Shown here in pieces: positions 20,325 to 44,095 of a DNA stretch of 64,000 nucleotides. The stretch is from Tubulanus polymorphus (taxonomy: Eukaryota > Nemertea > Palaeonemertea > Tubulaniformes > Tubulanidae): the NCBI RefSeq assembly GCF_964204645.1, contig NC_134032.1, forward strand, positions 11,154,275-11,218,274. Reading direction: 5' to 3'. Position 1 is the stretch's first letter. Each line of letters starts with the position of its first letter. The position numbers and the translations under genes were made by a program. The notes beneath the pieces are model-generated. The model did not search any database and had not been told where the DNA came from. It worked only from the letters and a program-made list of their open reading frames with translations.

Positions 20325-20336
20325 CTCCATTCTAAA

Positions 20337-21719
20337 TTAAATATCTCTTACAGCGAGGGAACTAAAAGAGTAAATGAAATTCAAAACACCGACAATGATA
20401 AAAATTGCTGGATAAGCGATATATGGTTGTACAGCACCCATTATCAACGTTAGTATTCCTGTTGTCACACGTGATGTGGCAGCATCTATTGCGTATATCG
20501 TCTCATAATTACCAGTAAATTTAACATCGGCGATATCAGAAAGCCAGGAAAAATAAAAACTAGTGAGAAGACCAAATGATATGTAACAGATAATAGAAAT
20601 GCCAAACGCTTGCCAAACACTTCTTATGAACATATATGAAAGGAATGAAAATGTCGCCATCAGACAATAAATTATGAAATAAATCCAACGATAATTTCTG
20701 GTTTTCGTCACCAGTAATCCGAATGTATTTGAACTCAGCAGATAAAATACCGTCGAAACCAATATCACTGTAGCTATCTGCCAGTGTTCTACATCGAGCG
20801 AGACTTGCTTAATCAAAAGAGGCATGTACAAGTAATGAATATTCATGCTAAAGAGATACACACAATCGAGACCTAAAAGCACCAATGTTTGGGCATCCGT
20901 CAACATTGATTTTACTAGTTTGAGATGAATTTTCCCCTCAGAAATCCCCGCACTGCTGTTCTCTATTCTGACAAAAGCTCGTAGCGCGATAACTATCATT
21001 AAGGCACCGAAAAGCATCCAAAATGATACCGCGTAACCGATAAGTTTCATTTCATATCAACGGATTGTGTAACCAATTTCAGCAGCGGCGAAATTCATAC
21101 CGTACACGACAGCTAACGCGGAAACTCTTTTGTCTTTATCCGCCAATGCAATCGCTACCACTGTCGACCCGGCGTTCAAAATAAACGACAAGGAAACCCC
21201 GATCAACGAATTTACAATCGCGAATATCCACCAAATCGATATGAAAACTGAAATGAAAATAGCTACGAGTCCTAATATTAGCCCAAACCAGAACGGTATT
21301 ACATGTCCATATTTGAACGTCAATCTACCACACAGAACGCTTCCAAGCACCAACCCAACATCGAACACAGCTTTAATGATGGCCACATTTTCGGCGATAT
21401 GTTTATCGGTAGATAATGAGTCATTACGGAATCCACCTTGCAGTTCACTGACTACGGCAGTTATTGTTCCTGATGTCGTATTGACAATAAACGAGGCAAA
21501 ACTTACAATAATGACGATAAGTAGAGGGTTTGCCTGGTAGCGGATCTTACGAGAAGATTCATCAGACGGTTGATCCTCTTTTGGTAGCATTTCAGACTGG
21601 TCAACGATTTGATGTAACTGGTTATCGATATGGCCACCAATAGCTCCATACTCATTGTTACCAACGGTAACATCTTTTTCAACAAGAATTCCAGTCGTAT
21701 CGTCCAACACTATTTTCAT
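20337..21719 (-). pseudogene. SLC18-like MFS transporter, copy 1, single in-frame nonsense codon
   Basis: Intronless frame nearly identical to the intact copy at 22504-23934. Translation from the methionine at 21719 runs 221 codons to TGA at 21057-21059, then continues in the same frame from 21056 to the stop at 20337. In copy 2 the same codon is TTA (Leu), so one base change made the stop. Upstream of 21719 the frame equivalent to the first 17 residues of copy 2 is also shifted. Differences otherwise are few: a 3-bp insertion giving NTTSGT and some substitutions, suggesting very recent loss or a segregating null allele. If translated, the halves would be two six-helix parts. The duplicated unit extends into both flanks (about 20325-22028 against 22493-24187). 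Confidence 0.85.
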
Positions 21720-22490: not shown

Positions 22491-22503
22491 ACTTTATTCT
22501 GAA

Positions 22504-23934
22504 TTAAATATCTCTTACAGCGAGGGAACTAAAAGAGTAGATGAAATTCAAAGCACCGACAATAATAAAAATTGCTGGATAAGCGATATATGGTTGTAGA
22601 GCACCCATTATCAACGTTAGTATTCCTGTTGTCACACGTGATGTTGCAGCATCTATTGCGTATATCGTCTCATAATTACCAGTAAATTTAACATCGGCGA
22701 TATCAGAAAGCCAGGAAAAATAAAAACTAGTGAGAAGACCAAATGATATGTAACAGATAATAGAAATGCCAAACGCTTGCCAAACACTTCTTATGAACAT
22801 ATATGAAAGGAATGAAAATGTCGCCATCAGACAATAAATTATGAAATAAATCCAACGATAATTTCTGGTTTTCGTCACCAGTAATCCGAATGTATTTAAA
22901 CTCAGCAGATAAAATACCGTCGAAACCAATATCAGTGTAGCTATCTGCCAGTGTTCTACATCGAGCGAGACTTGCTTAATCAAAAGAGGCATGTACAAGT
23001 AATGAATATTCATGCTAAAGAGATACACACAATTGAGACCTAAAAGCACCAATGTTTGGGCATCCGTCAACATTGATTTTACTAGTTTGAGATGAATTTT
23101 CCCCTCAGAAATCCCCGCACTGCTGTTCTCTATTCTGACAAAAGCTCGTAGCGCGATAACTATCATTAAGGCACCGAAACGCATCCAAAATGATACCGCG
23201 TAACCGATAAGTTTCATTTCATATAAACGGATTGTGTAACCAATTTCAGCAGCGGCGAAATTCATACCGTACACGACAGCTAACGCGGAAACTCTTTTGT
23301 CTTTATCCGTCAATGCAATCGCTACCATTGTCGACCCGGCATTCGAAATAAACGATAAGGAAACCCCGATCAACGAATTCACAATCGCGAATATCCACCA
23401 AATCGATATGAAAACTGAAATGAAAATAGCTACGAGTCCTAATATCAGCCCAAACCAGAACGGTATTACATGTCCATATTTGAACGTCAATCTACCACAC
23501 AGAACGCTTCCAAGCACCAACCCAACATCGAACACAGATTTAGTGATGGCCACATTTTCGGCGATATGTTTATCGGTAGATAATGAGTCATTACGGAATC
23601 CACCTTGCAGTTCACTGACTACGGCAGTTATTGTTCCTGATGTATTGACAATAAACGAGGCAAAACTTACAATAATGACGATAAGTAGAGGGTTTGCCTG
23701 GTAGCGGATCTTACGAGAAGATTCATCAGACGGTTGATCCTCCTTTGGTAGTATTTCAGACTGGTCAACGATTTGATGTAACTGGTTATCGATATGGCCA
23801 CCAATAGCTCCATACTCATTGTTACCAACGGTAACATCTTTTTCAACAAGAATTCCAGTCGTATCGTCCAACACTATTTTCATCCAATCGGTCTCTTCCG
23901 CGTTCGATGTGTTATGTAATGCGTAGAATTTCAT
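22504..23934 (-). CDS. SLC18-like (VMAT/VAChT-type) MFS transporter, copy 2, intact and intronless, 476 aa
   Basis: A 12-helix major facilitator protein. Layout and local words follow vesicular amine/acetylcholine transporters: loop 2-3 CGRLTFKYGHVIPFWFG (VMAT: NRIGYPIPMFAG), LYEM at the start of helix 6, HWQIATLILVSTVFYLLSLN in helix 8 (VMAT: [20 protein letters not shown]) and GNYETIYAI before helix 11. The family exchanges cytoplasmic amines for vesicle protons. Here the helix-1 aspartate position reads Val (SFIVNTSGT) and the helix-10 aspartate reads Thr (GLLTSFYFSW), so amine transport cannot be assumed. Starts at Met 23934; Met 18 (23883) is an alternative and is the only start shared with copy 1. 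No introns, unlike vertebrate SLC18A1/2, suggests retroposition. Substrate unknown. Confidence 0.85.
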   Translation of the reverse strand: MKFYALHNTSNAEETDWMKIVLDDTTGILVEKDVTVGNNEYGAIGGHIDNQLHQIVDQSEILPKEDQPSDESSRKIRYQANPLLIVIIVSFASFIVNTSGTITAVVSELQGGFRNDSLSTDKHIAENVAITKSVFDVGLVLGSVLCGRLTFKYGHVIPFWFGLILGLVAIFISVFISIWWIFAIVNSLIGVSLSFISNAGSTMVAIALTDKDKRVSALAVVYGMNFAAAEIGYTIRLYEMKLIGYAVSFWMRFGALMIVIALRAFVRIENSSAGISEGKIHLKLVKSMLTDAQTLVLLGLNCVYLFSMNIHYLYMPLLIKQVSLDVEHWQIATLILVSTVFYLLSLNTFGLLVTKTRNYRWIYFIIYCLMATFSFLSYMFIRSVWQAFGISIICYISFGLLTSFYFSWLSDIADVKFTGNYETIYAIDAATSRVTTGILTLIMGALQPYIAYPAIFIIVGALNFIYSFSSLAVRDI

Positions 23935-24187
23935 AAGGATGTAATCCTATGCCACATGTGAAACTGCGATTGAAACGAATCAAATCACGGGCTCTAAAAC
24001 TTAGTGTTAAAATCCGGGTAAATTCGATCAGCTAAATGCCAATTACGGGATATGTTAATAATCAAATCAGCGCGTTCGTAAGGTACAAAGCGGTGAACAC
24101 GAGCTCGAATACCGCATTCATTATGTTCAGTTTTTCTCGATTCGGAATTTCATTCTAGATTTGATAACATAGGATTTCGATACCGCC

Positions 24188-25040
24188 ACTACCTTTTTAT
24201 ATGCTGACGATACGACACTATATTCCTCAATTGATCCTGAAAATCCAAATGTTGGTAATAACCTTGCCAATATTGCTGAATGGGCTTCACACTGGAAACC
24301 TGATTTTAAAGCTAGTAAAAGCTGTGATCTAAATTTTTTTTACATTAAGTAATATATAATACGATCAATTGTATATACATGACAACCCGATAGTAAATAA
24401 AAATAAGCACCTTCGATTTATTCTGGATTCAAAACTTTCATTTGAAGACCGTGTTAACTATGTGTATGTAAAAGTTCTGACATGCCTAAATCCTCTTAAA
24501 TCATTGTTTTATAGACTTAAATCATGACATCTAAATACTATTTATGCATCATTTACATTTCCTCATTATGAATATTGCCATATCATTTACAATAGTGCCC
24601 CTAAAATATCTTTACAAAAACTAGAACGTTTACATAACAAAACAGCACCATTGATGTCGGGTTGTATACATGGTTCAAATACGTACGAATAAAGTTTTAA
24701 ATGTACTAGACTGGCAAACCTTGTCACACGGTTGCGTCTACAGTTATTTATGTATAAAGTATCTAAGGGTCATTGCCCAATATATGTCTCATCATTTTTT
24801 CATCAATGTATATATATTCCTGATAGAATAACAAGAAATCATCGTCCTTATCGTATTCCAACATCCCTTGTTGCAAAACCTGCAAATTCTCCATTCATTC
24901 AGTTATGACTGTGTGGAACAACACACGGGATCAAAATCGAAATAGCCCCACATATTCTCAGCTCAATCCAAAATTTTATTACGTAAATTGAGTATTTCTC
25001 CAACTTCAACTATTTACTTGAAATACGTCTCTAAGCAGAA
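24188..25040 (+). mobile_element. Truncated non-LTR retrotransposon (LINE), reverse transcriptase 3' end, decayed
   Basis: Plus-strand reading starts FLYADDTTLYSS, the YADD catalytic box of reverse transcriptase. After frame breaks come LRFILDSKLSFEDRV, EYCHIIYNSAPKISLQKLER and VWNNTRDQN, the usual order of the RT thumb and C-terminal tail in Jockey/CR1-like LINEs. Stops and shifts are frequent, so it is dead. It begins exactly where the duplicated flank of SLC18-like copy 2 ends and finishes where the next SLC18-like pseudogene starts. Confidence 0.85.
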
Positions 25041-25044
25041 AAGA

Positions 25045-26768
25045 GGAAGGAGTATCGCTTCACTTATTGTCACTATGGCATCAGGGACATTGATTGCCGT
25101 AGTAAGTGAACTGCAAGATGAATTTCGTGATAACTCATTATCTGCTGATAAACATATCGCGGAATATGTGGCCATCACCAAAGCTACCTACGATTTAGGA
25201 TCAATGGTTGGGGACGTTGCTTGTGGTAGAGTGACGTTCAAATATGGCCGCTTTTTATACCCGTTCTGGTGTTTGGACTGATATTGGGACTCGTAACTAT
25301 TTACATCTCAGCTTTCGTGTCAATCTGGTGGATATTTGCGACTCTGAATTTGCTTGCTGTGATTTCTTCACCGTTTTTAGTCCAAGCGGGTTCAACTATG
25401 GAGTCGATTGAGTTTGGAAGTGAAGCTAAACTAGCTAGGGAGCGTTCATAAATTACGTACCTCCATTGGGGGAGGGGGGGGTTACTGAATTTTGGTACAA
25501 AGTGGTACATGGGGGAGGGGGTCAGCAAAAAAGGTACGTACTTTGAGGGAGTGGGGTATTAATCAATCTTGGTACGTACTTTATGTACCAAACTAAAATG
25601 AAAATAGCCGTTGGTGTTTTATCGGCTTTTAGTACCGGGTATATAAAATCAATAAACAACAATACTTGCTTAATTCTTTTGTTGCGTCATTTATTTAATA
25701 TCGGAATTTTGTTCTAAACAAAATGTCGAGGTACCACTTGTAGTAGACTTCAACTGGGATGTCCCCAATACCGGGTACCGGTATCGATCTTTCACGCACT
25801 TGTTGGTACATCATTAATGAAATCAGGTATTTATATTTTTTGATTTGTGTTCTTTGCATCAATATAATTGGGGAGGGGGGGTGGTCATGGGTGCGATGGT
25901 ACGTTCCTCAGAGGGGGGTCAGTGAATTTGGTACAAAGGTGGTACAAGGGGGGAGGGGGGTCAGAAAAACGGGAGATTTTGAGGTACGTAATTTGTGAAC
26001 GCTCCTAGCTTAAGCCGTAGTCTACAGTTTTGCATACTGTGGCGCAGGATATGGCTGTGCAACCACTTTCTATGAAATCTAGATGGTTGGACGTGCGATA
26101 CCTTTTAGGATTCTTTCCTCCGCCCGAGCGACTGTTACACTAATTCGAGCATTCGTCAAAATAGAAAATAGAAATTTCTAAAGACAGACCTATCCAACTG
26201 AGCCAAGTAAAGTTAATATTAAGTGATATCCAAACGATCGTTTTATTCGGGCTCAAATGCCTTAAATATCAATATCAATATACAACACATCTATATGCCT
26301 TTGCTGATTGCGAAGGTCGCGTTCGGTGCAAAGCGATGGCCGATTGGAACAGTTTTAGTGGCGTCAGCTACAATCCTCCTTTTAGGCACGAATTTGGATT
26401 ACTCAAAGCCGAAAATTAGGAATCGTCTTTGGATGTATTTAATAGTTTATTGCGTGATGTCGACAATTTCATTCGTTTCATATCCGTTCATAAGAAATGT
26501 TTGGCAAGCGTTGGCTTCCGATATAATCTGTAAACTCTCGTCTGGACTAATGACTAGTTTCAGTTTTTCCTGGGTTTCTGATGTCGCGGACAAGAAATTC
26601 AACGGGAACTACGAGACTATATTCGCTATAAATGTTTTGGTATCACGTTTGACCACGATAATATTTATCACCGCGCAGCAGGTAGAACCTGTAATAAGGT
26701 ACTCAGCAATTTTTATAGCTAGAGGCGTTACGCTTTTCTTGTACTTCTGTACGTTTGTTGCTGTATAA
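25045..26768 (+). pseudogene. SLC18-like MFS pseudogene 3, split by a mobile element
   Basis: Plus-strand remnants follow the order of the intact copies: ASGTLIAVVSELQDEFRD, DKHIAEYVAITKATYDLG, CGRVTFKYG, then a frameshift to FGLILGLVTIYIS and SIWWIFATLN. An insertion at 25437-26005 interrupts it. After it come decayed middle parts and a long open stretch (26223-26768) with HIYMPLLIAKV, RNRLWMYLIVYCVMS, SFSFSWVSDVAD and NGNYETIFAI. The 5' end is missing, replaced by LINE sequence. It is clearly a relative, not a recent copy, of the minus-strand pair. It points at the 3' end of the first SLC17 gene. Confidence 0.85.
25437..26005. mobile_element. G-rich MITE inserted in SLC18-like pseudogene 3
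   Basis: Left end AGGGAGCGTTCATAAATTAC (then GTACCTC) and right end, reverse-complemented, GGAGCGTTCACAAATTACGT form terminal inverted repeats of about 25 bp. TAGCT on both sides (25432-25436 and 26006-26010) may be the target duplication; the paralogous site at about 31788 lacks the insert. The interior has runs of 7-8 G and duplicated GGTACAAAGTGGTACA blocks near both ends. Related termini occur at 57514-57866 and 63799-63964. Confidence 0.85.
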
Positions 26769-26987
26769 GATATGTGACTGAGTGGTCCGTATTTAAGACA
26801 AAGGCGCCCCTGCCAATAACAACATGTGTAGAGAAGTAGCTCTTTGTATAGACATATACATGTATATATCCGTGATTTCAGTCGAGTAATACTGCCACAT
26901 TTAAAAAACGATCTACTTGTAAAAAGTAACAAACTATATGTACACGTAGTCAGTTATTCCCTTTTCTGATTTGTAAATCTTCTCTTA

Positions 26988-29900
26988 TCAGTTGTTGTTT
27001 TGAGTATTCCTGCTGGGTGATGCTATCATTTCTAAGTTTTTGTCTACTGAACCATCAATTTTTGCCCAAGGCTGGACCTCGCCGCTTCCTATGACCAAAT
27101 AAACTAATGCACCAAGCAAGCCAACACCTGCACATATGCATAAAAATAATTGCCATTCTTCTCTCGTGTTCTGCAAGTAGATAGAAAATGATTAAAATTA
27201 AAAAATGTCTAAATTGTCTTAAACAAGGTTGGAAAACTGCCTTAAATAAGGTTAGAAAAAGATACGCGCTTTTAGCGTATATTTCTACTTACGTGTTCAG
27301 TTATAATCCCAGCGATTGCTGGGCCAAGTAAGCCTGCAGCCGATGAAAATGTGGACGCCACTCCCACCAACAAACCGGCATATTTGGGGGCGATATCCAC
27401 TTGGTTACAGAAGACCACACTGCACGGGCATCCCAGCGCCGCTCCTCCCGCAATAAGGAGAACTAATGCTAAACTAACGTGAAAACAATCGAGGAATCCC
27501 AAACTAAAGATGAAAGTCGACGAGGCAATCATTCCTGAAAGGTAATTGTTGTCGATATACATGTACACATTCGAAACTCGCTGCAGTCTGAATGCTGTTA
27601 CAAATGCACCAATCAACTGAAGTTTGGCAAAGCTTACCAGCAGAATATAATGTTTTCCGTGTCAATGTGATTGCGTCAGGATATTTTTTGATGAGAAAAT
27701 CGGCGAGGATCCCGCAAAGTATAAGAACTGCCCACATCATTGCAATACATATTGACGTGTAGATTCCAATCTGCAAAAGAGAATTTCATCCAATTGAATA
27801 TCTAGCGAACATTATATTTCATTCATATACCGGTAGATTATCGATCATTGATTACCTGTTACTATGTTTTGCAAAATCAACTATTCGTCATTGATATGAA
27901 TATTAGCGTAAATTTATTTAGAAAAGCAGTTAATTGGTGACGAGTCTTGCAGACTGATACCTGTTGAGACAAATTCCCAAGGTACTCGAAAGAGTTTTCG
28001 GACAAAAAAAAAGCCTGAACATTTATTTATGTAAACTACCAGCCATAATTCATCTAACTCCAGGTTTCTTATCGTAGAAAAAATGATAGTAGGATATAGT
28101 TTTGTCAAAAAGGGCATGATGAGGTATCTAATCCTTGTACGACTTACCGTTTTGATGCCGAGCTTTAGAACGTCGTTGATATACGACGGTGTCACCACCT
28201 GAAGGGCGAAATTCACCCAGGAAAAACAAAAGTATCCAATATTCAAAGCCCATATTGGACCAGACTTGATAAATCTACTCCACGGGATGTCTTGCAGTAC
28301 CTACAAACATGTGTGTATATGAATTCTTCGATAGCATTGGACGAAAAATATGAAATAACATGTAACATAATAACATTTATACGTAGGAAACTTAAAAAAT
28401 CGAATAGTTCTTTGAAGGCTTATTTTATTTTACTAAAACAAGGAGCTTTTGTGTAGCTTCATCAAAAAGATGAGTGCAGTTCCATTGCAGATACGAGAGT
28501 ACATGTAAAGGGAGACACGTTTTACGTTTACTGATTCGACACCAGGTTTACACGACCCATTCACAATTCTCCTCATCCATATCAAAGAAACTTACAAAAG
28601 CTTTAAACTGTTGTTTTTCCATCTGGCCGGCTAGAGATTCCTGTATATACTTTTTCTCAGCCGCCGATATTCTGGGATGTTGTTCCGGTGTATCGTAAGC
28701 GATAAAGAACCAACAGAAACACCAAACACACGATAGTCCACCAAAAGTGTAGAAAATCGACGGCCATCCGAGATATTCACAAAATACACCCGAAAGCGCA
28801 AGGTTCACTATTGACCCCATTTTTGCACCTGAAATGAATTTCTACCGCATTATCAATTGTACTTATCTCAGACAGGGTGGCCACCTTTGTTAGCTATTCC
28901 CTGACTATTCCCTGATATAAGTGGTTTCCCTGAACTCATCTGGTGGGAATTCAATCAAAAATACGTAAATTATAGACGGAAATGGTTTGATTTTTTGCAC
29001 GAACCAACTACTAACAGTATCTCAACGAATATCCTTTACTTTTTTTGCCTATATATTAGCTTTTTTGTTTACAAAATTCCCCGACTCGTTTTAAAGATAT
29101 TAAAAAACCCGACTTTCCCCACATTTCCCTGATATACAGATTAACGCCCACTCGATATGACATCATGAGCATATGAAAGCATAGAAATAAACTACCTGAT
29201 ATTGCTATAACAGTCAGCCTAGTTCTCTCAAAAGGTGGAGCCCAGGCCGCCATCAAGGACGATATCGCCGGAAGCGCGAAGCCCTTGAATCGAAACAGTC
29301 GTAACTTGTGATATCGATGTTATTTTCCATAACCACTGATTTTTCGTTCGAACTCACCATAACCGCTTATGGATACACTTACCTGGCAAAGACCGGTGAT
29401 GAATCGAAGAGTGATGACTAGATAAGGACTAGCTGTAGAAGCAATGGGAATCAACAATGTGGCTACAGTCGATACTGCAGTTGTGGATCCGAAAGTAACG
29501 CGTCCTCCGTACTTCGAAATGATCATACCCGCCGGGAAAGAAGTAACTACATATCCCCAGAATATTGAACTAAGGATCAAACCTTGAGTTTCTTTCGACC
29601 AAATGAAACTTCCATCCTGATCAGAATGAGAAAATATTACAAAGCATTAGCGTATGTGCGTCGAGTTTCTGAAGTTCTGAGTTAGATGAATACACGGAAC
29701 GAATGTTTGTTCCTTAAGAACTGCCCCCCTCCGGTAAACCAGTAAACATAAAGACAAATCGTACGTCAGAGGTTAACTTTATTTCATTAAAAGTGCAAAC
29801 GTTCGCTTTTAGTTGTAGCTTCTCTAGGTAAATGATGATAAATCTATCAGTGTATGGTTCATATATACCGGGTGTCCCACAATATGGTTCCTCTAAAATT

Positions 29901-30774
29901 ATTGAATACTTATAAGTTAATCCTTCTCAGTAATTACATTTTTATGATTTATTAGTAATTAGTAGGATGTATTCTGGGCCATGTAGACCACGCCCAGTTG
30001 GTTTTCAAATACTAGTTATGAAGCGACTGATTTTACTTCAAAACCAAACTTGATAGAGGAAATCAGGCTGCTTATTAATGATAGGCAGGTATATTCGTTT
30101 GCAAAACAAATTCCATTTTCGTGATATTGAATTGAGTGACACACAATTATGTTGCTAATCGTTTAACAAAGGTTCAACAAAGAAGGACACACTGCAAATG
30201 GACAGCACCAACAATTCATCAAGACTAGACTGGTCATTATGAATTTTTGTTAGCCCTCATTTGCTTGACGAAGCGACTATACACATAGTATATCGAAAAT
30301 AGATACTTATGATAAAATCCAGCAAACCTTCGAAGTTCTATTTATCTTAAATTTTACTGATTCGACAGAATGTCCGACCTCTATAACTTTAATCTACCTG
30401 ATGTTTAGATTCGTAACCTAAACTCCTATTCGAAGAACATTTTACGCTGCCCTCGTCTCGTTTCGACCAATCCTCTTCCGGTAATGTTAACTTTTCTACT
30501 GCGGTATGGTTCACCATGCAAACTACTGCTACACTCATACTCGCGATTACAGCGCCCAGACAAAAACATCCGAAAGAAATAACAATTGCCAACGCTAAAC
30601 GGGATGAACCCATCCATGTATCTAGACCAATATACACAAAATTCTATATAATATGTCCATATGTCCACCTTCGAACATACATGTACATAAACAGACTTCT
30701 AATTGAATATCATAAAGTTTCTGAAAAACATCAATGACATACTTACAGCCTTTATTTTCATCTGAAAGTGTCAT
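26988..30774 (-). CDS. SLC17-type (sialin/VGLUT-like) anion transporter A, 9 coding exons, 505 aa
   Basis: Exons: 30774-30747, 30621-30398, 29616-29383, 29283-29196, 28828-28596, 28300-28148, 27770-27638, 27534-27293, 27170-26988. All joins keep frame to TAA. Family words: SKETQGLILSSIFWGY, FPAGMIISKYGGR, AAWAPPFERTRL, AYDTPEQHPRIS, KYIQ, DIAPKYAGLLVGVASTFSS, REEWQLFLCI and SGEVQPWAKID, all typical of SLC17 MFS carriers of organic anions across lysosomal or vesicle membranes. VNHT in loop 1 is an N-glycosylation site. The helix-1 arginine of sialin/VGLUT is Ile here (FCLGAVIASMSV), and the helix-4 R..E...E plus His pattern reads RFITGLCQGFALPAISS, so transport may differ or be lost. Sister genes B and C lie upstream. 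Substrate unknown. Confidence 0.93.
28873..29146. mobile_element. GGGTGGCCAC-family element in an SLC17 intron
   Basis: Starts CAGGGTGGCCACCTTTG and carries several CTATTCCCTGA and ACAAAATTCCCCGAC words, ending near CTGATATACAGATTAACG. It lies in intron 4 of SLC17 gene A; a shorter relative (36416-36553) lies in the same intron of gene B. Confidence 0.65.
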
Positions 30775-31359
30775 TTTTGTATCGCGTCACTGCAACGAGC
30801 AATGGCAGATTTTATTCCGTAACCGTTTTAATGTATTTTCAACCTATACACGCACAGTCTATTATATGTGCTAATACATCTATTTAATTTTGAAGCCAGA
30901 TTTGATTTGCTAGAAATAGGATTAATCTCTTATCTATGCTGCGTGCCATATAAAGCGACCACAGCTGGAGCGAAACAGGACTTATGAATGATTCCGAGAT
31001 TTTTTTTCTAGATTTGATGATCGCGGTAATTAGATGCCACATTTCGTGGTATTTCGAAGCACAAGAAGCACGGCTTGCCTCGCAATTTTCTCGCGCTTTC
31101 TTAATAACAACGGACATTATCTTTTTCTCAGGGCAAGTTTTTTTTCACCTGCATCAAAAGCGCAGCAGTCAGCAGCACAAAATCTTCTCGACTCCGAATC
31201 ATTATCCACATGATCGATAAACTAATTACCCTCTTTAACCTCTGTGAAAATTGGAAATATAGCTTCAAGTGATACTTAGATATTTCAACCAATCTAGTCA
31301 CACCGTTTACCAGTCCGAATCATTACCAAATAAGGATAAATCGTCCGAGGTATTTTAAT
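30775..31359. promoter_or_regulatory. Upstream region of SLC17 gene A with a block conserved in B and C
   Basis: No gene seen. Around 30955-30995 lies GGAGCGAAACAGGACTTATG and AATGATTCC. The same block (GGAGCGAAGCACGGGATCTA, then TGAATAATTC) is at 37885-37920 above gene B, and GAACGAAGCACGGGATTTAT is at 43249-43272 above gene C, each roughly 75-200 bp from the start codon. This is either shared 5' UTR/promoter or simply duplicated flank. The adjacent GATCGCGGT / AGCACAAGAAG words are shared by A and B. Confidence 0.55.
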
Positions 31360-32500
31360 GTAACATCCACTGCCAGGCAAACCCTGTAATTGTCGTCTGT
31401 ATCGTAAGTGCTGCTTCATTTATTGTCACCATGGCATCAGGGACATTGATTGCCGTAGTAAGTGAACTGCAAGATGGATTTCGTAATAACTCATTATCTG
31501 CTGATAAACATATCGCCGAAAACGTGGCCATCACCAAAGCTACCTACGATTTAGGATTAATGGTTGGGTACGTTGCTTGTGGTAGAGTGACGTTCAAATA
31601 TGACCGCTTATTATACCCGTTCTGGTTTGGACTGATATTGGGACTCGTAACTATTTTCATCTCTGCTTTCGTGTCAATCTGGTAGATATTGGCGACTCTG
31701 AATTTGCTTGCTGGGATTTCTTAACCGTTTTTAGTTCAAGCGGGTTCGACTATGGTGTCGATTGAGTTTGGAAGTGAAGCTAAACTAGCTATAACTTTAG
31801 CCGTAGTCTACAGTATTGCATACAGTGGCGCAGGATATGGCTATGCAACCACTTTATATGAAATCAAGATGGTTGGACGTGCGGTACCTTTTTAGATTCT
31901 TTTCTCCGCCCTAGCGACTGTTACATTAATTCGAGCATTCGTCAAAATAGAAAATACCCACTCAGGAATTTCTAAAGACAGACCTATCCAACTGAACCAA
32001 GTAAAATTAATGTTAACTGATATCCAAACGATCGTGCTATTCGGGGTCAAATGCATTCACGTCATCAATATCAATGTACAACACATCTATATGCCTTTGC
32101 TGATTGCGAAGGTCGTTCGGTGCAAAGCGATGGCAGATAGGAACAGTTTTAGTGGCGTCAACTACAATTTCTTTCGTTTCATATCCGCTCATAAGAAATG
32201 TTTGGCAAGCATTGGCTTCCGATATAATCTGTAAACTCTCGTCTGGACTGATGACTATAGTTTCAGTTTTTCCTGGCTTTCCGATGTCGCGGACAGGAAA
32301 TATAACGGGAACTACGAGACTATAATTTTATTCGCTATTAGATGGTTTGGTATCACGTTTGACCCACGATGATATTTATTACCGCAGCGGGTACAGTAGA
32401 ACCTTCATAGGATACTCGACGATTTTTATAGCTATAGGCGTTCCACATTTCTTGTACTCCTTCACTTCTGTTGTTGTAAGAGATATTATGACTGGGTGAT
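31360..32500 (+). pseudogene. SLC18-like MFS pseudogene 4
   Basis: Begins with CQANPVIVVCIVSAASFIVT, matching the intact helix 1, then MASGTLIAVVSELQDGFRNN, KHIAENVAITKATYDLG and FGLILGLVTIFISAFVSIW. There TGG has become TAG (about 31682). Later pieces (INVQHIYMPLLIAKV, SSGLMT, FPMSRTGNITG) are in shifted frames with deletions. Closest relatives are pseudogenes 3 and 5, and it lacks the element inserted in 3. It converges on the 3' end of SLC17 gene B. Confidence 0.85.
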
Positions 32501-33174
32501 TGGTATCATAGGCATCCCTGCCAATAACTATAGAGGACGAGTTTCTATAAACATGGATGTGATTTTCATTAGATTAATTTGAAAATACATCAGCAGATAT
32601 TGTCAAAAACTATAATCGATCGTCAAAACAGGGCCGTACCTAGCATTTCTCTTTTTTTTGGGGGGGGGAGGTTTGCAGTGAAAAAAGGACCGTAGCTTAT
32701 GTAACTGCCCTTCCCCCCCCCCAATTGAAATTAAAAATTGATTAAGCCACGGTAGAAGGAAGAACAAGAAAACTAATTTGAAGGTTTATTGACGCCTTGA
32801 AAAATACTCATGCTTAGTATTGTCAACGATTAATAATACAAATATATCTAAAACATTACATTGTATCAAGGATCAAAAAAGTTATTTTGATCTTGAACAT
32901 ATCGATAATTGAATTCAATTGACTGCCAACCGGTCTAGCCCCATATATCGATGACGTAGTGCAATCTCAACAATAATCATCAAAATTCATCAAAAATAGA
33001 ATAAGAGTTATGATACATATCTAATTACAACATAAAACCGCCAAATTTGCAATCCTTATTGTAATAGTAATAGTAATAGTAATATATTTTCTTATATAGC
33101 GCAGATCTAAGAAATAATCGCTGCGCTTCACAATGTAAAACACAATAGTAATTGTCCCACTGTATATTGAAAGA
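32501..33174. other. Spacer 3' of SLC17 gene B
   Basis: No gene seen. It contains AGGGCCGTACCTAGCATTTC followed by a T/G-run (about 32630-32675) and a C-run (about 32712), the look of a small inverted-repeat element, then AT-rich sequence and a TAATAGTAATAG simple repeat near 33062. Confidence 0.45.
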
Positions 33175-36100
33175 CTATACATATTGAATTGTTGTTGGAT
33201 TACTTGGTTGGTTGCTTGTTGGGTCATTGATTTGTGAAATACGTCGAAATAGATACGACGTTAAGGTGATCATTTGTAGGTTTCCATCTACTACACCATC
33301 AATTTTTGCCCAAGGCTGGACCTCGCTGCTTCCTATGACCATATAAACGAATGCACCAATTACACCAACGCCTGAGCATATGCATAAAAATATTTGCCAC
33401 TCTTCTCTCGTTTGCTGCAAGGAGAAAATGGAAAAACCATAGATATTGTACATGTATATATAGCATTATGTTAAATTGTCAAAATGTCTCAACTGTCCTG
33501 AACAAGGTTAGAAAAATATACGCGCTTTTAGCGTATATATCTATTTACGTGTTCAGTTATAATCCCAGCGATTGCTGGGCCAAGTAAACCTGCAGCCGAT
33601 GAAAACGTGGACGCCACTCCCACCAACAAACCAGCGTATTTTGGGGCAATATCCACTAAGTTACAGAAGATCACACTGCACGGGCATCCCAGCGCCGCTC
33701 TTCCCGCAACAAGGAGAACTAACGCTAAACTAACGTGAAAACAATCGATGAATCCCAAACTAAAGATGAAAGTCGACGAAGCAATCAATCCTGAAAGGTA
33801 CGGTAATTGTTTTCGATATACACATTCCGAAATCGTTGCAGACTGAATAACATTACGAATGAACTGTAATTTGGCAAAGCTTACCAGCAGAATAGAATAT
33901 TTTCCGTGTCAATGTGATTTTTTCAGGATATTTCTTGATCAGAAAATCGGCAGTAATTCCGCTAAGTATTAGAAATACCCACATCATTGCACTACATATT
34001 GACGAGTACATTCCAATCTGCAAAAAAAATAATTTCATCGAATTGAATGCCTAGCAAATATGATATGCGTTTCTTAAAACCGAACTAAATTTCTCATTAA
34101 ATGAAATTTTCATTCATACAGAATATCAATCAAGTTTATGCGTCTATCTATAATAGTTTATTTCACGACATTCATTTAGATTATCAGTCATTGATTACGT
34201 GCAACCAAAAATTCATAAAGCCTGTGCCAGTTCAGGTTTGCCAATCTAATATAAAGCCCAACGCCGCATGACGCGGGGAAACACGGAAACACGGAAACAA
34301 GAGATGGAAACGTGTGTCCAGAGCGTTTCTCTGTGTCGTGTGCGTTAACGAGAAACAACGTTTCCTAGATAAAAACATGGTGCATGCGTAACGTCATACT
34401 CTTTCGACAAACTTAAAGAATCAATGATCCAACCAGCAACCAACGACCAAGTCAGCCTGTATACTATTTCAGCAAAGTTTTAATCGTTCAGCATCTTTAT
34501 CTTCTTTCTACTTCAGATTACAATCTATTACAATTCTCTACCAGAAGAGCTTGTTCTGAACTCCACTCAGCTCTCCAAAGCCGTTTAAAGAGACTCTTCG
34601 CAAGCTCTCTACCAAGCTCTGCCTTAATTTCAAAATTCGAACCTATTCATATCAGTTTATCATGCGGGTTGAGGATGATATTTAGATTTTGACCTAATTT
34701 GGTAATTCTAGTTTATCTAGTGCTTAGTAACTAGATATTCTAGGCTGGGTGTCGGCAACAGAATGAATCATTATTGAAGAATTATTAAAAACGATTCGAT
34801 TAATAAATATGAAATTATTTCAACACAACCAGGATGAAAAATGATGTTTTTATGTATACATATAATGTGACGATGACCGCATCGTTGAGTCCGGGGTTCT
34901 GTCGTTCCCTTCATTGGTCTATTACATTGCCCAGGACAGGTTGCCGCTAAAGCCCGGCGTAAGTAAGTGGGTTCCCGTGTTTGCCGTTATCCAGAATAGT
35001 GTTCTGCAAGGCAAATTCCCACACGCTACACTCGAACAAGAGAATTCGGAGAAATAAAACCCTGAACATTTATTGATGAAAACTGTCTAGCTCAGGAATT
35101 CTTATCGTAGCTTGAGTATTTCTGAAGAATGATAGTTACATAACTTTGTCAAATAAAAGGAAAGGTAATTCGCATGATTAGGTTTTAACCTTTGTAAGAC
35201 TTACCGATTTGATACCGAGCTTTAGAACGTCATTGATGTACGACGGCGTCACTGCCAGAAAGGCAAAGTTCATCCAGGAAAAACAAAAAAATCCAATATT
35301 CAAAGCCCATATTGGACTAGACTTTATAAAACTACTCCACGGGATGTCTTTCAAAACCTGCAAATGTATGTGTGTAAAGTCTGTGATAACATGAGGTGAA
35401 ATTAAATATAATATGGGAAAATTACGGCAAACGGTACTTGGAAAGTTAACTCGATTTCACTATAAGTACGAGTTTTCGTTACATTCGTACGATAGCTTCA
35501 CCAGAAAGGCGAGTTAAGTCAATGCAGAAACAATAGTATTTATGTGGGGTAATACTAATTAGAGAATTGCGTTTTACTTTCATCTGATGATTCGATACAT
35601 AGAAAGCTTAGAAATAGGAGAACAGTCAATGGAGAACCAACAGTATTTCTGGTGAGAGATTGAGATTTGCGTTTTACTTTTACTGATTCGACATCAGGTC
35701 ATCCTCGCATGCGAGAGTTATTTGATTGCCACTCAGCGGCCACCTGTTCGCCCACGAAATCTTGGGTGATGTAACTGGGGTGTTACTAAAACACTACTAA
35801 AACGAAGAAGACCGACCATTTTACGTTTCATATGCGTTTGTCTATATCTGGTATTGCCTACACTCATTGGCAGAGGTGGTTGAATGCACAGATAACGCCC
35901 CTAGTGATGATTTTAATGAGTGTCTTCGGTCTTCGTTTTAGTCATGCATGGTTTTAGTATCGCAAAGGGCATAGGTCTTCGTTTAAGTAGTGCATAGTCT
36001 TAGTAACACCCGATGGAATAGACCAATATAGGGTTTGCACGAGCTTCGGCGATAGGCAATTAAACCCGGGCGAGTGAGGATGCATCAGGTTAATACGTCT

Positions 36101-37810
36101 TCTCCCCACACTTCCTCATCCGTGTCAAGGAAACTTACAAAAACTTTTGACAGGCTTTCTTCTAACTGCCCGGTTAAAGAATCCTGTATATACTTTTTCT
36201 CAGCTGCCGATATTCTGGGATGTTGTTCCGGGGTATCGTAAGCGATAAAGAACCAGCAAATACACCGAACACACGATAGTCCACCAAAAGTGTAGAAAAT
36301 CGACGGCCATCCGAGATATTCACAAAATACACCCGAAAGCGCAAGGTTCACAATTGAACCCATATTTCCACCTGAAATGGATTTCTACAACGTTATTTGC
36401 TGTACGTACCTCAGACAGGGTGGCCACTTTTAATTCGCCTTTCTCTGACAATTCCCTGACATGTTAATTGTTTTTCCTGACTTTATCTGCTAGGAAATCT
36501 ATAATCGATTCCTTTTCCCATATTCCCCTGATGTCCAATGGCCACTCCGTTAAGAGTTAATTGTACGATTACATGACAATGCAGTAATACACTACCTGCA
36601 ATGGCTATAACAGTCAGCCTACTTCTCTCAAACGGTGGAGCCCAGGCCGCCATTACGGACGATAATGCCGGAAGTGCAAAGCCCTTGAATCAAAAAGACT
36701 TATTTATGATATCGATGTAATTTTCCGTATTTACTATAGCTAATGCACTTACCTGACAAAATCCGGTAATGAATCGGAGTGTGATAACTAGATAAGGACT
36801 AGCTGTAGAAGCAATGGGAATCAACAATGTGGCTACAGTCGATACTGCAGTTGTTGTCCCGAATGTAACGCGTCCTCCGTACTTAGATACGATCATACCC
36901 GCCGGGAAAGAAGTGACTACATATCCCCAGAATATTGAACTAAGGATCAAACCTTGAGTTTCTTTCGACCAAATGAAACTTCCTTCCTGATCAAATAAGA
37001 AAATATCATGAAGCATGAATGATGTACTGTTTATAACTATCATCAACGCTCGGCTGTGTTTACCAGGTCATCCAAATTCATGTATCATAACAGTGCATCG
37101 ATTCCCAAGTTCGGAGTTTAATGAATACTCGGATGTTTGTTTTCTTAGATGTTTTAAGAGTTTCCTGCTACCCGAGAAATCAGTAAACATAAAAACAAAT
37201 AGTACTTCGAAGGTTTACGCGATTAAGAACAATACGAGCTTTCGCTTTCTATTGTTTGTAATTATCTTCATCATTAATTAAATGATGATGATACCAATAT
37301 AAGTAGCACTCTGTGGCTTCCTGATAAAGCTCCTAATATACTAGTAGCGAGAGCTTGTACTTTTTGATAAGATTCAGCAAACCCCCAAAGTATAAGTGAT
37401 TTGACACCAGTTAACACTGCTCCTCGACTAAGATGCTACCTGATAGTCAGATTGATAACCTGAACTCCTACTTGAAGAACACTGTACGCTGTCATCTCGC
37501 ATTGACCAGTTCCCTTCCGGTGAAGTTAAATCTTCTACTGCGGTATGGTTCACCATGCAAATTATTGCTACACTTATACTCGCTTTTATAGCAACCAGAC
37601 AGAAATATCCGTATGAGATAACAAGCGCCAACGCTAAACGGGATGAGCCAATCCATGTATCTAGATCAATATAATGCCAGCAAATTCTATACAATATGCC
37701 CACCTTTCTTTCGAATAGATATAAAAGATACTTTCTGACTGAGTATCATCTATCTTCAGAAAATTATCAATGACATACTTACTGCCTTTCTTTTCGTCAG
37801 AAATTGTCAT
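33175..37810 (-). CDS. SLC17-type (sialin/VGLUT-like) anion transporter B, 9 coding exons, 523 aa
   Basis: Exons: 37810-37783, 37660-37440, 36986-36753, 36683-36596, 36371-36139, 35357-35205, 34017-33885, 33790-33549, 33414-33175. The pattern is identical to gene A apart from one codon less in exon 2 and a longer last exon; frame is kept to the stop. Words: SKETQGLILSSIFWGY, VSKYGGRVTFG, AAWAPPFERSRL, AYDTPEQHPRIS, DIAPKYAGLLVG and SSEVQPWAKID. The helix-1 basic position is Lys (LVAIKASISV) instead of Arg. Helix 4 reads RFITGFCQGFALPALSS, lacking the acidic pair and His of sialin. The C-terminal tail is the longest of the three (SQINDPTSNQPSNP). Intron 6 (34018-35204) is the longest and holds repeat debris. 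Confidence 0.93.
34255..35040. repeat. Repeat debris in intron 6 of SLC17 gene B
   Basis: 34260-34370 has GGAAACACGGAAACACGGAA and a facing GTTTCTCTGTGTCGTGTGC, an imperfect hairpin. 34480-34690 gives fragments reminiscent of a LINE C-terminal tail (SSPKPFKETLRKLSTKL) in one plus frame, weakly supported. 34860-35040 is unrecognised. No exon signal seen. Confidence 0.4.
36416..36553. mobile_element. Short GGGTGGCCAC-family element in SLC17 gene B
   Basis: Left end CAGGGTGGCCACTTTTAATT and right end CCAATGGCCACTCCG are imperfect inverted repeats about 138 bp apart, with CTCTGACAATTCCCTGAC inside. It sits in the same intron as the longer copy in gene A, but whether it is the same insertion is not clear. 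Confidence 0.65.
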
Positions 37811-38354
37811 TTTTCTATCGAGTCACTGCTGCTAGAAATGAGCTTAATTTCGTTTGCGTATCCTATATGAATTTGTCACATCTGCCGGAGCGAAGCACGG
37901 GATCTATGAATAATTCTGGATAAAGAACTGCAGTCTGGATTTGACGATCGCGGTGACGTCATGGCGGATCTAGAGCGGTAGCACAAGAAGTACACGCTTC
38001 CCTCGCAATAAACCATTTTACAGTTGCTAGCCGCCATTTCGTGCTTTTCGGACAGCAGCTTCCAGGGAAATTTTTCCATCCGCAAATACTAGATCAGCAG
38101 CAAATGACTTTGGCCTAACCGCCGAATCATTATTCACACGAACAACGAACTTATCTATTTAATAGGATTGATATGTACCTGAATATATATTCGAGACCTA
38201 TCTGCACCAGAAAAAGATTTCGTTCATGAAAGCATTACAAAATATAGAACTGCCGAAATGCGAATCAAATTAAAAGGGACTATTTAGCTGAGTGTAATGG
38301 ATTGTGACAGAAACTGGTGGCTTGATTCACTCGATTTATAGTTTCAGACGCATT

Positions 38355-39110
38355 AAGGCTGGCTTATGTCGACAAGCAACGCGACGCCTACCGACGCAAC
38401 TGGGTTTATCACCGATTAGCGGCAACTAGCGGCCTACGAGAGGCCGCCAGTTGCTGTTCAATCGGTTCGACATAAGCCGGCTTGCGACGGCAACCAGACG
38501 CCCACCGACTCGTCGCAAGCCGTATCCGGCTAGTTGCCCATGTTCTACTCCGGCCAACGGTAGGCGGACAGTTGCTTTCGATCGCAACCGACATAAGCTC
38601 TTCTGCGACGCGACGGAACTGAGCGCAGGGGTTCCAGCCGATAAGAGACCGCATACATAGTACAAATTATCACCGCTAGTTTGCGTCATTCGTAATTAGT
38701 CATAAACTTTCAAATTCAAGTAGTTCAAAACGTAAACGAAACCTTCTGCACGGCAGATGACTGGGCCGAAGATCTAGAAACGAAATTGGTAGAATTATGG
38801 TGTGAGCGGCCATCTTTATATAATGTCGCTAGCACATTGTATTCAAAACAGAATCAGAAAGATAAAGATCTTAAAGAAAAAGCTTTTCTAATAGAAATAT
38901 ATTTCCCAATAATTCAAATTTATTCTCAAAATGCTTATCACGTGACCATTTGAGCCGTTGCAGTTGCTAGAAATCGTAACTGACATAAGCAGGGTAGCAA
39001 CTGGGAGGATCTCGTATCCCGCTAGTCGTCCTCAGTTGCTGCGAATCGGAGCGCAGTCGACATAAGCTGGGCTGCGATCGCGGTTGCTCTCAGTTGCGTC
39101 GGTAGGATAT
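38355..39110. mobile_element. Foldback-like repeat cluster with CTTATGTCG and GCAACTG words
   Basis: GC-rich island upstream of SLC17 gene B. CCTACCGACGCAACTG (38388-38403) is repeated inverted as CAGTTGCGTCGGTAGG near 39092-39107. Between them are at least five copies, on both strands, of GACATAAGC next to GCAACTG or TTGCGAC words. It could be one foldback transposon or nested copies of a short palindromic element. No coding capacity found; the open frames there simply follow the repeats. Confidence 0.65.
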
Positions 39111-39339
39111 TGCACCGAAATGAAAATAATATCAATACTTGTTTTTGCTTCATCACTGATGCACGTAATTGCAAAAGCATAATATCTGTAGTATCCCACG
39201 TGATAAATAAACATTACAATTTGAAAGTACAAATAATAATCCCAATGATAATCATTGAATCATAAGATGATCAGATTACCTCGATTTAGTTTCAGCTGCA
39301 TTTAGCAAAGGATATCATCTGCGAAGATCATCGATGTAA

Positions 39340-39660
39340 TAATATTCGTTCATACGAAATATTTTGGCTAGCATTCGCTTCCCATATAATCTGTAAACTC
39401 TCGTCTGTATTGATGACAGGTTTCCGATGTCGCGGACAGGAAATATAACGGGAACTACGAGACTATAATTTTATTCGCTATTAGATGGTTTGGTATCACG
39501 TTTGACCCACGATAATATTTATTTCCGCAGCGAGTGCTTTAAAACCTTTCATAGGATACTCGACGATTTTTACAGCTATAGGCGTTACACATTTTTTGTA
39601 CTCCTTCACTTCTGTTGCTGTAAGAGATATTATGACTGGGTGATTGGTATCATAGGCATC
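39340..39660 (+). pseudogene. SLC18-like MFS pseudogene 5, 3' fragment only
   Basis: About 320 bp closely matching pseudogene 4 at 32180-32510, including the same decay marks (ACGAGACTATAATTTTATTC and TTAGATGGTTTGGTATCACG). Only the region of helices 9-12 remains. Shared lesions show it was copied after pseudogene 4 had already died. It converges on the 3' end of SLC17 gene C. Confidence 0.8.
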
Positions 39661-39811
39661 CCTGCCTGTTTCTATAAACATATATATGTGATTTTCATTT
39701 GATGAATTTTAAAAAAAATATCAGCAGGTATTGCCAAAAACTAATGGATCTACATGTGCTTCTTTAAACAAACAAACTATATGGATATGCAGTAACGTTC
39801 TATTCCTTGTT

Positions 39812-42800
39812 TCAGTTGTAAATCTTCTTTGAATCATTTGTTAGCTTTGAGTTTTCATCCCGCGTTTGGTTATGCGATATATTTTGCAATTCTTTGTCTG
39901 TCGCGCTATCAATCTTTGCCCAAGGCTGGACCTCGCCGCTTCCTATGACCAAATAAACCAGTGCACCAAATACGCCAACACCTGCACATATGCATAAGAA
40001 CAATTGCCATTCTTCTCTCGTTTGCTGCAAGTATAAAATTATTAACCAAATGGGTCATATAGCATCATTTCAAATCATTGTCAAAATGTCTCAACTGTCT
40101 TAAAAATATTAGCTTTATGCGCCTATTTCTACTTACGTGTTCAGTCATAATCCCAGCAATTGCTGGGCCAAGTAAGCCTGAAGCCGATGAAAACGTGGAC
40201 GCCACTCCTACCAACAAACCAGCGTATTTTGGGGCGATATCCACTTGGTTACAGAAGATCACACTGCACGGGCATCCCAGCGCTGCTCTTCCCGCAATAA
40301 GGAGAACTAACGCTAAACTAACGTGAAAACAATCGATGAATCCCAAACTAAAGATGAAAGTCGACGAGGCAATCATTCCTGAAAGGGAAATGTTATCAAC
40401 ATACACATTCTGAAATCATTGCAGACTGAATTAGATTCCAACTGAATCAATTAACTGTAATACGGCAAAACTTACCAACAGAAAAGAATATTTTCCGTGC
40501 CAAAGTGATTTTATCAGGATATTTCTTGATCAGAAAATCGGAGGTAAATCCGCTAAGTATTAGAAATACCCACATCATTACGCTACATATTGACGAGTAG
40601 ATTCCAATCTGCAACAGAGAATTTCATTGCATTGAATGTCTAGCAAAAAGTGCATGTATCTACTTTTAAATGGAACTATAGATTTGTTTCATTATTCATA
40701 TACACGATTAGTCATTGATTACCTAGCACTTTTCGTCATAATATGAATGGTATTGGAAATTCATTTAAAAAGCAGTTCATTGGTGACGGAAAATAAAAGC
40801 CTGAACATTTGTTGTCGAATTTGTTGAAAACCCCAAGCCTAACTCGTTGTTATCAAACTTAGGATTGATTTCTCTCCTGGCTGTAGCATCCCAGAGAAAT
40901 ATGATGGTTACAATACTATAAATCCCAAGTTCATGGTTAGTTTTGTCAAAAAGGGATAGGTAACGCGTATGGTGAAGTTTCTAATCCTTGTACGACTTAC
41001 CGATTCGATGCCAAGCTTTAGCACGTCGTTGATATACGACGGTGTCACCACCAGAAAGGCAAAATTCAACCAGGAAAAACAGAAATATCCAATATTCAAT
41101 GCCCATATTGGACCAGACTTTATGAATCTACTCCACGGGACGTCTTTCGATACCTGTAAATATATGTGTGTGTATAAAGTCTTCGATAACACGATATAAA
41201 AAATATGAAAATAAGGAAATTTGTGGTAAAAATAGTACTAGGATTTTATCTCTAATAATTGCTAGTAGTTGAGTAGTTGCTCGTAGATTTTACCAAGAGT
41301 ATTAGCTTTCGCCCTTCTTGTGTAGTATCTTCATCAGAAAAAAGAGCACAGTCAATATACACACAAAATTACGTTTTACTTCGACTTATTGGACACGGTT
41401 TCTCCCCAAAATTCTCATCATTCGTCTCAAGGAAACTTACAAAAACTTTCAACTGGTTTTTTTCCATCTGCCCGGTTAAAGAATCCTGTATATACTTTTT
41501 CTCAGCTGCCGAAATTCTGGGATGTTGTTCCGGTGTATCGTATGCGATAAAGAACCAGCAGAAACACCAAACACACGATAGTCCACCAAAAGTGTAAAAA
41601 ATCGACGGCCATCCGAGATATTCACAAAATACACCAGAAAGCGCAAGGTCCACTATTGTTCCCATTTTTGCACCTGAAATGAATCTCAATCACGTAATTT
41701 GTTGTACTTACCTCAGACTCACAAAAACAACATGTACACGAAAAAAACGCAATAATAAACTACCTGCAATGGCTATAACAGTCAGCCTACTTCTCTCAAA
41801 CGGTGGGGCCCAGGCCGCCATCAAGGAAGATATTGCTGGAAGCGCAAAGCCCTTGAATCAAAAATACTTATTTGTTATCAATGTAATTAGTCCTGATTTC
41901 CAAAATTTGGAACGGACCTGGATCGGTCTATAAATGTAGAAATCTGGATGGGTCTGGTTAGGTCGGTCGAATTTGGAACGGTCTAAAATGGAACAGCTAA
42001 TTTGGAACGGATATGGAATGGATTTTGATAGTGTGAACGCTTGGTCTGTTCCTGGTCTATAAAACTACGTATTAGTCCATGGTCTGTTCCAAGTTGGAAT
42101 GGGCCAAGTTTAAACCGTTCACAATAGCGTGAATGCGTCTCATAGCTAATGAAAACGCTTACCTGGCAAAGACCGGTGATAAATCGAAGAGTGATGACTA
42201 GATAAGGAATAGCTGTAGAAGCAATGGGAATCAACAATGTGGCTACAGTCGATACTGCAGTTGTTGTCCCGAATGTGACGCGTCCTCCGTACTTTGATAC
42301 GATCATACCCGCAGGGAAAGAAGTGACCAGATAACCCCAGAATATTGAACTAAGGATCAAATCTTGAGTTTCTTTCGACCAAATGAAACTTCCTTCCTGA
42401 TCAAATGAGAAGATATTACAAAGTATTAGCGTATGTGCGTCGAGTTTTATGTTCGGAGTTTGATGAGTGCACGGATTTTGTTAGTAAAAACTGTTTCTCC
42501 TGCCGTCTAAAATATCAGAAAACCTTAAGACATAGTACTTCGGAGGTTAACTTTATTTCAGTAAGAGCTTTCGAAATTACGAGCTTTCGCTTCTAGTGTA
42601 TTATAGCAGCTTCGTAGTTTTCATAAATTCAGTAAACCTTCGAGGTACTATTCGTCTGAACGTTACTGATTGGACACCAGATTAAAACACGGCCCTACCA
42701 CAACCTTGCTACCTGATATTTAGATTTATGACCTAAACTCCATTTTGAAGAAAATTTTACGCTGTCTTCGTCTGGTTTCGACCAATTCCCTTCCGGTAAT

Positions 42801-43068
42801 GCTAACTCTTTTACTGCGGTATGGTTCACCATGCAAACTACTGCTACACTCATACTCGCTCTTATAGCAGCCATACAAAAATATCCGAAAGATATGAAAA
42901 TCGCCAACGCTAAACGGGATGAGCCAATCCATGTATCTAGATGGAAATATATACGAGATTCTGTGTAAATGTCCCCTTATCGAACAGATAAAGTGATACA
43001 TTTTAATCATCGTCTATTTTCGGAAAAATATCAATTGCATACTTACCGCCTTTATTTACATGTGTCAT
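39812..43068 (-). CDS. SLC17-type (sialin/VGLUT-like) anion transporter C, 9 coding exons, 513 aa
   Basis: Exons: 43068-43047, 42936-42713, 42396-42163, 41851-41764, 41673-41441, 41153-41001, 40608-40476, 40378-40137, 40024-39812. Same pattern as genes A and B; exon 1 is two codons shorter (22 bp) and frame is kept to the stop. Words: SKETQDLILSSIFWGY, VSKYGGRVTFG, AYDTPEQHPRIS, DIAPKYAGLLVG and GSGEVQPWAKID. This copy alone keeps the helix-1 arginine (MAAIRASMSV) that is conserved in sialin and VGLUTs. Helix 4 still reads RFITGLCQGFALPAISS. Intron 3 (41852-42162) carries an unclassified repeat with GGTCTGTTCC and TTTGGAACGG words. Of the three it looks most likely to keep anion transport. 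Substrate unknown. Confidence 0.93.
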
Positions 43069-43270
43069 TTTTGTATATTGAGCCTCTGCATCGCGCATTA
43101 TATGACAGATTTCTAACCATTACCGGGTATCGTTTGATTATATCACCTGTACACGCAGTTCATTTATGGATATTCGACGTCTGATTCGTTTTGAACCCGG
43201 TTTTAATCTGCTGTAAATGGCTGCGTGCCCTTTGCAAGCCACATCTGCCCGAACGAAGCACGGGATTTAT

Positions 43271-43290: not shown

Positions 43291-44095
<805 letters not shown>

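Follow-up and report, generated by a model that had tools for sequence, protein, structure and literature searches.

How did three SLC17 transporter genes come to lie in a row on one chromosome of the nemertean Tubulanus polymorphus, each of them facing the remains of an SLC18-like gene? The DNA in question, which we call the window, is a stretch of 64,000 nucleotides from contig NC_134032.1 (C8 below; C8:11154275-11218274) in a genome of 267.8 Mb and 77 contigs. When the window was compared with itself by BLASTN, three direct-repeat units in collinear order emerged: A (26463-30812), B (32164-37840), and C (39342-43112). Every unit combines the 3' part of an intronless VMAT/SLC18-like remnant on the plus strand (c3, c4, and c5 in A, B, and C, respectively) with a minus-strand, nine-exon, sialin-like SLC17 gene, the two standing tail to tail. 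The reading we prefer, with a probability of about 0.8, is that a two-gene block was duplicated to three units, that the SLC17 member was kept and the SLC18-like member lost, and that c4 later took part in sequence exchange.

The repetition itself is clear from the self-comparison. Segments 26480-27942 of A and 39342-40788 of C are 75% identical, 27025-27817 of A and 33269-34066 of B are 83% identical, and 33298-34058 of B and 39908-40647 of C are 85% identical; as each match has an E value of 0.0, chance does not account for the direct repeats. The distance from the end of the pseudogene to the SLC17 stop codon is ~220 bp in A, ~685 bp in B (with an insertion), and ~172 bp in C. Between A and C, the 3' end of the pseudogene, the intergenic DNA, and the SLC17 stop align without a break, and between B and C the alignment runs ~130 bp past the pseudogene, up to the B-specific insertion. 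Collinear homology thus extends across the junction of the two genes, and because it aligns through in A and C, we favor duplication of a block over independent insertion of its parts. A first-pass annotation of this DNA had described a plus-strand SLC18-like pseudogene followed by a minus-strand SLC17 gene three times over, and the direct repeats agree; its tail-to-tail orientation is correct in all three units. Its limits for c3 are exact, and our c4 is slightly longer than the 31360-32500 given there.

The three SLC17 genes appear complete, as had been proposed, at the level of open frames. The splice models, set by eye on a three-way alignment of genomic sequence, have GT-AG borders and eight intron positions common to all three genes, and the start of gene C at 43068 coincides with the end of the block as first annotated. 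Synonymous divergence (dS; NG86) is 0.28 for A-B, 0.25 for A-C, and 0.28 for B-C, with nonsynonymous divergence (dN) of ~0.10 and dN/dS of ~0.35-0.4, well under 1. Rooted with a relative from contig C2, the trio is star-like: ultrafast bootstrap support for (A,B) was 67, shared-derived sites numbered 19 for AB, 15 for BC, and 12 for AC, and along the gene no pair was consistently closest. Outside the window, the relatives with the highest scores are a minus-strand tandem cluster at C2:24772150-24804851 and a gene at C3:4183190-4185652. The exon pattern of the two C2 genes that we fetched is that of the window genes, and the founder of the trio probably derived from the C2 cluster.

The SLC18-like members have fared differently. 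With the nearest intact relative as reference, c3 shows two stops in mid-gene (TAA and TAG) and a TAA three codons early at its end. Its indels are +2, -8, -2, an in-frame -3, and a paired -4/+1; its 5' end is cut off at a fragment resembling a long interspersed nuclear element (LINE), and its 3' part is still open for 181 codons. In c4 there are three private in-register stops in the part shared with c3, one more nearer the 5' end, and private indels of -2, +2, and -1 in addition to a deletion of ~96 bp, both ends of which lie at ACAAT motifs of c3. The private indels of c5 are +1 and -17. Four indels (+6, +1, +1, and +1), confined to the final ~170 bp of the gene, are common to c4 and c5 at matching places, which bears out the earlier observation that these two pseudogenes share lesions. 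An in-frame +3 is all that c3 and c4 have in common, and in their 5' part they share zero disabling lesions. No disabling lesion common to c3, c4, and c5 was found. That the 5' parts of c3 and c4 lack a common disabling lesion suggests a last common ancestor that was, over this part, still open or only recently dead. The duplication of a two-gene unit proposed by the first-pass annotation therefore stands as regards retention of SLC17 (open frames, low dN/dS), loss of the SLC18-like member, and homology across the A-C junction. Its further statement that the SLC18-like member decayed each time is not supported if read as three separate deaths, given the four indels common to the tails of c4 and c5 on the one hand and, on the other, the 5' part, where every disabling lesion of c3 and of c4 is private.

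By divergence, c4 does not look as old as its SLC17 neighbor. As a yardstick, we used SLC17 introns 1, 3, 7, and 8, picked for good alignment; introns 2, 4, 5, and 6, which are poorly aligned and more divergent, were omitted. Between c3 and c4, 53 of 745 sites of the 5' part are different (7.1%), versus 95 of 362 (26%) in the A-B introns (p 3.8e-17). For c4 and c5, the tail comparison gives 11 differences in 190 sites (5.8%), versus 86 of 362 (24%) in the B-C introns (p 3.2e-8). By the introns used, the 5' part of c4 is thus about fourfold too similar to that of c3, and its tail about fourfold too similar to that of c5. Columns of c5 before c4 position 32184 were excluded from the polarized tail counts and the maximum likelihood (ML) trees (tail and left-hand part) described below. 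Coding sites point the same way, with a c3-c4 dS of 0.085 and dN of 0.055 (840 sites) versus the A-B dS of 0.28. The tail of c3 and c4 differs at 33 of 178 sites (18.5%), more than their 5' part (p 1.9e-5). Divergence far below that of the flanks is a mark of gene conversion, and it is what we observe when four of the eight SLC17 introns serve as the standard, the quality of the intron alignment being the main weakness. Because c4 looks too young for its SLC17 neighbor on both sides, it has the pattern that exchange with neighbors leaves, and we consider it reasonably likely that c4 exchanged sequence with them by gene conversion after the block was duplicated. We rejected a single unequal crossover as the source of c4, as SLC17 B is near neither A nor C.

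Several results weigh against this interpretation. Unpolarized site patterns shift at c4 position 32248/32250, a shift reached by 0 of 10,000 permutations in a scan that included the nonhomologous first columns of c5. This hint of a topology switch inside c4 was not upheld by ML trees with outgroups or by approximately unbiased (AU) tests. The ML trees weakly favored (c4,c5) on both sides of the suspected border, with bootstrap values of 62 and 78. On the left, the AU test rejected only (c3,c4) (p-AU 0.02), the very pairing expected from c3-c4 conversion, and on the right it rejected nothing. With no switch in these tests, the conversion step is argued from divergence and not from topology. 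The comparison of branching orders suggested in the first-pass annotation sets a weakly supported (c4,c5) beside a star-like SLC17 trio, with discordant divergences. The c3-c5 tail (33 of 179) is also less diverged than the A-C introns (33%), so the intron yardstick may run high. Misaligned introns would inflate it in the same direction, although dS gives the same order. Finally, the proposed origin on C2 is based on scores and not on a tree of all SLC17 genes.

Three other explanations were weighed. The plainest is that the block was triplicated, that the three SLC18-like copies died separately, and that there was no exchange afterwards. Such a history fits the layout and orientation of the units, the private nature of all disabling lesions in c3 and the 5' part of c4, and trees that need no more than one topology. 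It leaves the four tail indels common to c4 and c5 unaccounted for, as well as the roughly fourfold excess similarity of c4 to the 5' part of c3 and the tail of c5 by the SLC17 introns used and by synonymous sites, and we regard it as rather doubtful. Alternatively, exchange may be unnecessary if the tail of c3 merely evolved fast. Among 178 polarized tail sites, private changes number 19 in c3, 2 in c4, and 3 in c5, and the ML branch of c3 is 0.18 in the tail versus 0.06 in the 5' part, just as a rate difference would have it. A fast tail, however, does not account for how little c3 and c4 differ in the 5' part (745 sites) when SLC17 introns and dS are the measure, nor for the low divergence of the c4-c5 tail, which makes this explanation unlikely in our view.

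It is also conceivable that SLC18-like copies, for example retrocopies, were inserted independently beside three SLC17 genes that had been duplicated separately. All 17 intact SLC18-like members that we counted (see below) are intronless, and by divergence c4 is younger than its SLC17 neighbor, both of which suit insertion. The junction speaks against it, aligning throughout between A and C and for ~130 bp beyond the pseudogene between B and C, as does the identical orientation in all three units. Moreover, c3 and c5 have diverged by 0.18 in the tail, not much less than the A-C dS of 0.25. Independent insertion is therefore very improbable.

Under block duplication with later exchange, the events might have run as follows. 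An SLC17 founder would have come, probably by DNA-mediated duplication, from the C2 cluster, where the best relatives with the same introns lie, and would then have come to adjoin one gene of an SLC18-like family, intronless and concentrated on C8. The two-gene block would have been tripled in tandem at a synonymous divergence of ~0.25-0.28, the likely copying mechanism being unequal crossing-over between repeats. Selection held all three SLC17 frames open, as the intact frames and their dN/dS show. The SLC18-like members were dispensable and, as their lesions show, were lost at different times: c3 gathered private lesions, as did the 5' part of c4; c5 lost the greater portion of its 5' part; and the same frameshifts came to stand in the c4 and c5 tails. 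The low divergence of c4 suggests that it was probably partly overwritten by, or swapped with, its neighbors through gene conversion.

Dispersed repeats lie inside c3 and close to c5. The DNA transposon inside c3 has many copies genome-wide (94-96% for the five longest), and c4 preserves the empty site. The repeat near c5 recurs at 40 or more other places with 91-95% identity (40 of 816 candidates scored), and because it ends 235 bp before c5, the 5' part of c5 may have been lost through later events. The coordinates of all features are collected in the table.

Table. Transporter genes, pseudogenes, and repeats of the block and its surroundings (window positions)
Feature	Position	Strand	Description
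c1	ORF 20337..21719 (copy 20312-22026)	minus	Tandem copy of c2, 95% DNA identity; open reading frame (ORF) with one in-frame TGA
c2	ORF 22504..23934 (copy 22479-24187)	minus	Intact intronless ORF, 476 aa; other subfamily, outside the triplicated unit
Retrotransposon-like 3' fragment	24173..25010	plus	Degenerate, non-long-terminal-repeat type; between c2 and c3; weak RVT_1 match (E 0.0068, below the Pfam cut-off)
c3	25045..26768	plus	Unit A SLC18-like pseudogene; stops, frameshifts, 568-bp transposon inside
Non-autonomous DNA transposon	25438..26005		~568 bp; terminal inverted repeats ~25 bp (96%); inside c3
SLC17 A	26988..30774	minus	9 exons, 505 aa, open; Ile at sialin Arg57 position
SLC17 A exon 2	30398-30621	minus	Holds the Arg57-equivalent (alignment)
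c4	~31298..32490	plus	Unit B SLC18-like pseudogene; private stops and indels, tail indels common with c5
SLC17 B	33175..37810	minus	9 exons, 523 aa, open; Lys at sialin Arg57 position
SLC17 B exon 2	37440-37660	minus	Holds the Arg57-equivalent (alignment)
Dispersed repeat	38353..39107		~754 bp, inverted ends; before c5
c5	39342..39640	plus	Unit C SLC18-like 3' remnant, from ~codon 354 of 453; tail frameshifts common with c4
SLC17 C	39812..43068	minus	9 exons, 513 aa, open; Arg at sialin Arg57 position
SLC17 C exon 2	42713-42936	minus	Holds the Arg57-equivalent (alignment)

What might the surviving SLC17 proteins do? In searches of solved structures with the proteins of A and C, human sialin was the best match to both (E 5.9e-89 over residues 15-484 for A; E 7.4e-95, full-length, for C). 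A match over ~470 residues places them in the sialin/NPT branch of SLC17, the anion:cation symporters of the major facilitator superfamily (MFS). Protein A also matches TIGR00894 with an E value of 3.9e-108, but its 362 bits are below the curated cut-off of 626. The residues aligned to sialin Ser61 and Arg168 are conserved in all three proteins. At the position of sialin Arg57, in transmembrane segment 1, both fetched C2 genes agree with C in having Arg; B and A, unlike sialin, do not. All three proteins have Thr and Gln in place of sialin Glu171 and Glu175, in transmembrane segment 4. In one sialin study, mutation of Arg57 is described as severely impairing the transporter, and Glu171 and Glu175 are suggested as possible proton sensors (PMC11116495). 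To judge from their sequences, the three genes most likely encode putative sialin/NPT-type organic-anion carriers that are beginning to diverge at the transmembrane-1 arginine. Upstream of SLC17 C, ~230 bp from its start codon, lies a run of 61 TA dinucleotides (43298-43419).

The SLC18-like copies belong to a much larger family. The five copies in the window fall into two lineages and not into a single local family: in the tree, c1 and c2 join a gene on contig C10, whereas c3, c4, and c5 join a gene at C8:12.79 Mb, 1.6 Mb away. The subfamily branches have ultrafast bootstrap values of 97-100 in DNA and protein trees alike. In the frame-aware alignment, c4 was probably misread in part across its indels, which makes its branch length there unreliable; branch lengths were taken from the DNA alignment. 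On this tree, we rejected c1 and c2 as part of the triplicated unit.

Among solved SLC18 proteins, c2 matched VMAT1 (E 1.6e-15), VMAT2 (4.9e-15 and up), and VAChT (0.019 to 0.055), and up to an E value of 1 no other MFS family was matched in the PDB. As these matches are distant, we use the label "SLC18-like". The protein of c2, the one examined, differs from the VMATs in having no introns in its gene and, by alignment to VMAT1, in having L, Y, T, and A at the positions of N305, E312, D399, and D426, polar transport residues of VMAT2. The VMATs are also the best match (5.7e-22) of a gene on contig C12 with 29% identity to c2.

We counted at least 17 single-frame intact members with at least 45% identity to c2 and 437-533 aa from the first Met; this is a lower bound, as the search scores the best candidates only. 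Twelve of them are on C8, which makes up 6% of the genome (binomial p 1.6e-11, with the caveat that five loci form one tandem cluster, so that their places are not independent). Eight decayed copies or fragments were also seen on C8, four of them within the window. No SLC17 match (E 1e-4) was seen in 16 fetched stretches around the 16 other intact loci, with flanks of roughly 2.5 to 6 kb per side; these stretches also took in two decayed loci and the C12 gene.

Taken as a whole, the history of the block is ordinary birth-and-death evolution. As in other tandem families of this kind, a block was repeated, one member was retained and the other pseudogenized, the lesions are partly shared, and there are signs of exchange between repeats. 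It departs from the usual case only in combining two genes from different MFS branches, one of them probably from another chromosome, and the principle is not new; general views are unchanged by it. The block nevertheless illustrates in detail how, when a two-gene unit is repeated, one gene can be retained and the other lost, and decay, transposon insertion, and probable conversion can all be read in it. It also counsels caution, as lesions common to adjacent pseudogenes need not imply that the whole copy was dead at the time of duplication. For transporter evolution, a chromosome-biased radiation of intronless SLC18-like genes and an SLC17 trio that varies at a key residue are of some use. 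One might speculate further, on sequence grounds, that new anion carriers arise from the block on a small scale, the three retained copies, with Arg, Lys, or Ile at the site of the gating arginine, perhaps differing in substrate or coupling, while the intronless VMAT-like family radiates and dies mostly on one chromosome, but we hold this to be improbable.

Full-text literature searches found no paper on this transporter block. Rfam searches at gathering thresholds found nothing, and at E 0.05 Pfam matched none of eight other ORFs of the window. Four contig-end stretches, one of which reads N at both shown ends, contained no telomere repeat. A tandem array at 59930-60604 of the window consists of a 75-bp unit repeated nine times, the copies being 95% alike. 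In addition, the ligand domain typical of ionotropic glutamate receptors was matched 77 times in the genome, for instance at C1:3681702-3682111; among these matches is a gene fragment of kainate type very close to GluK2 (E 1.7e-89).

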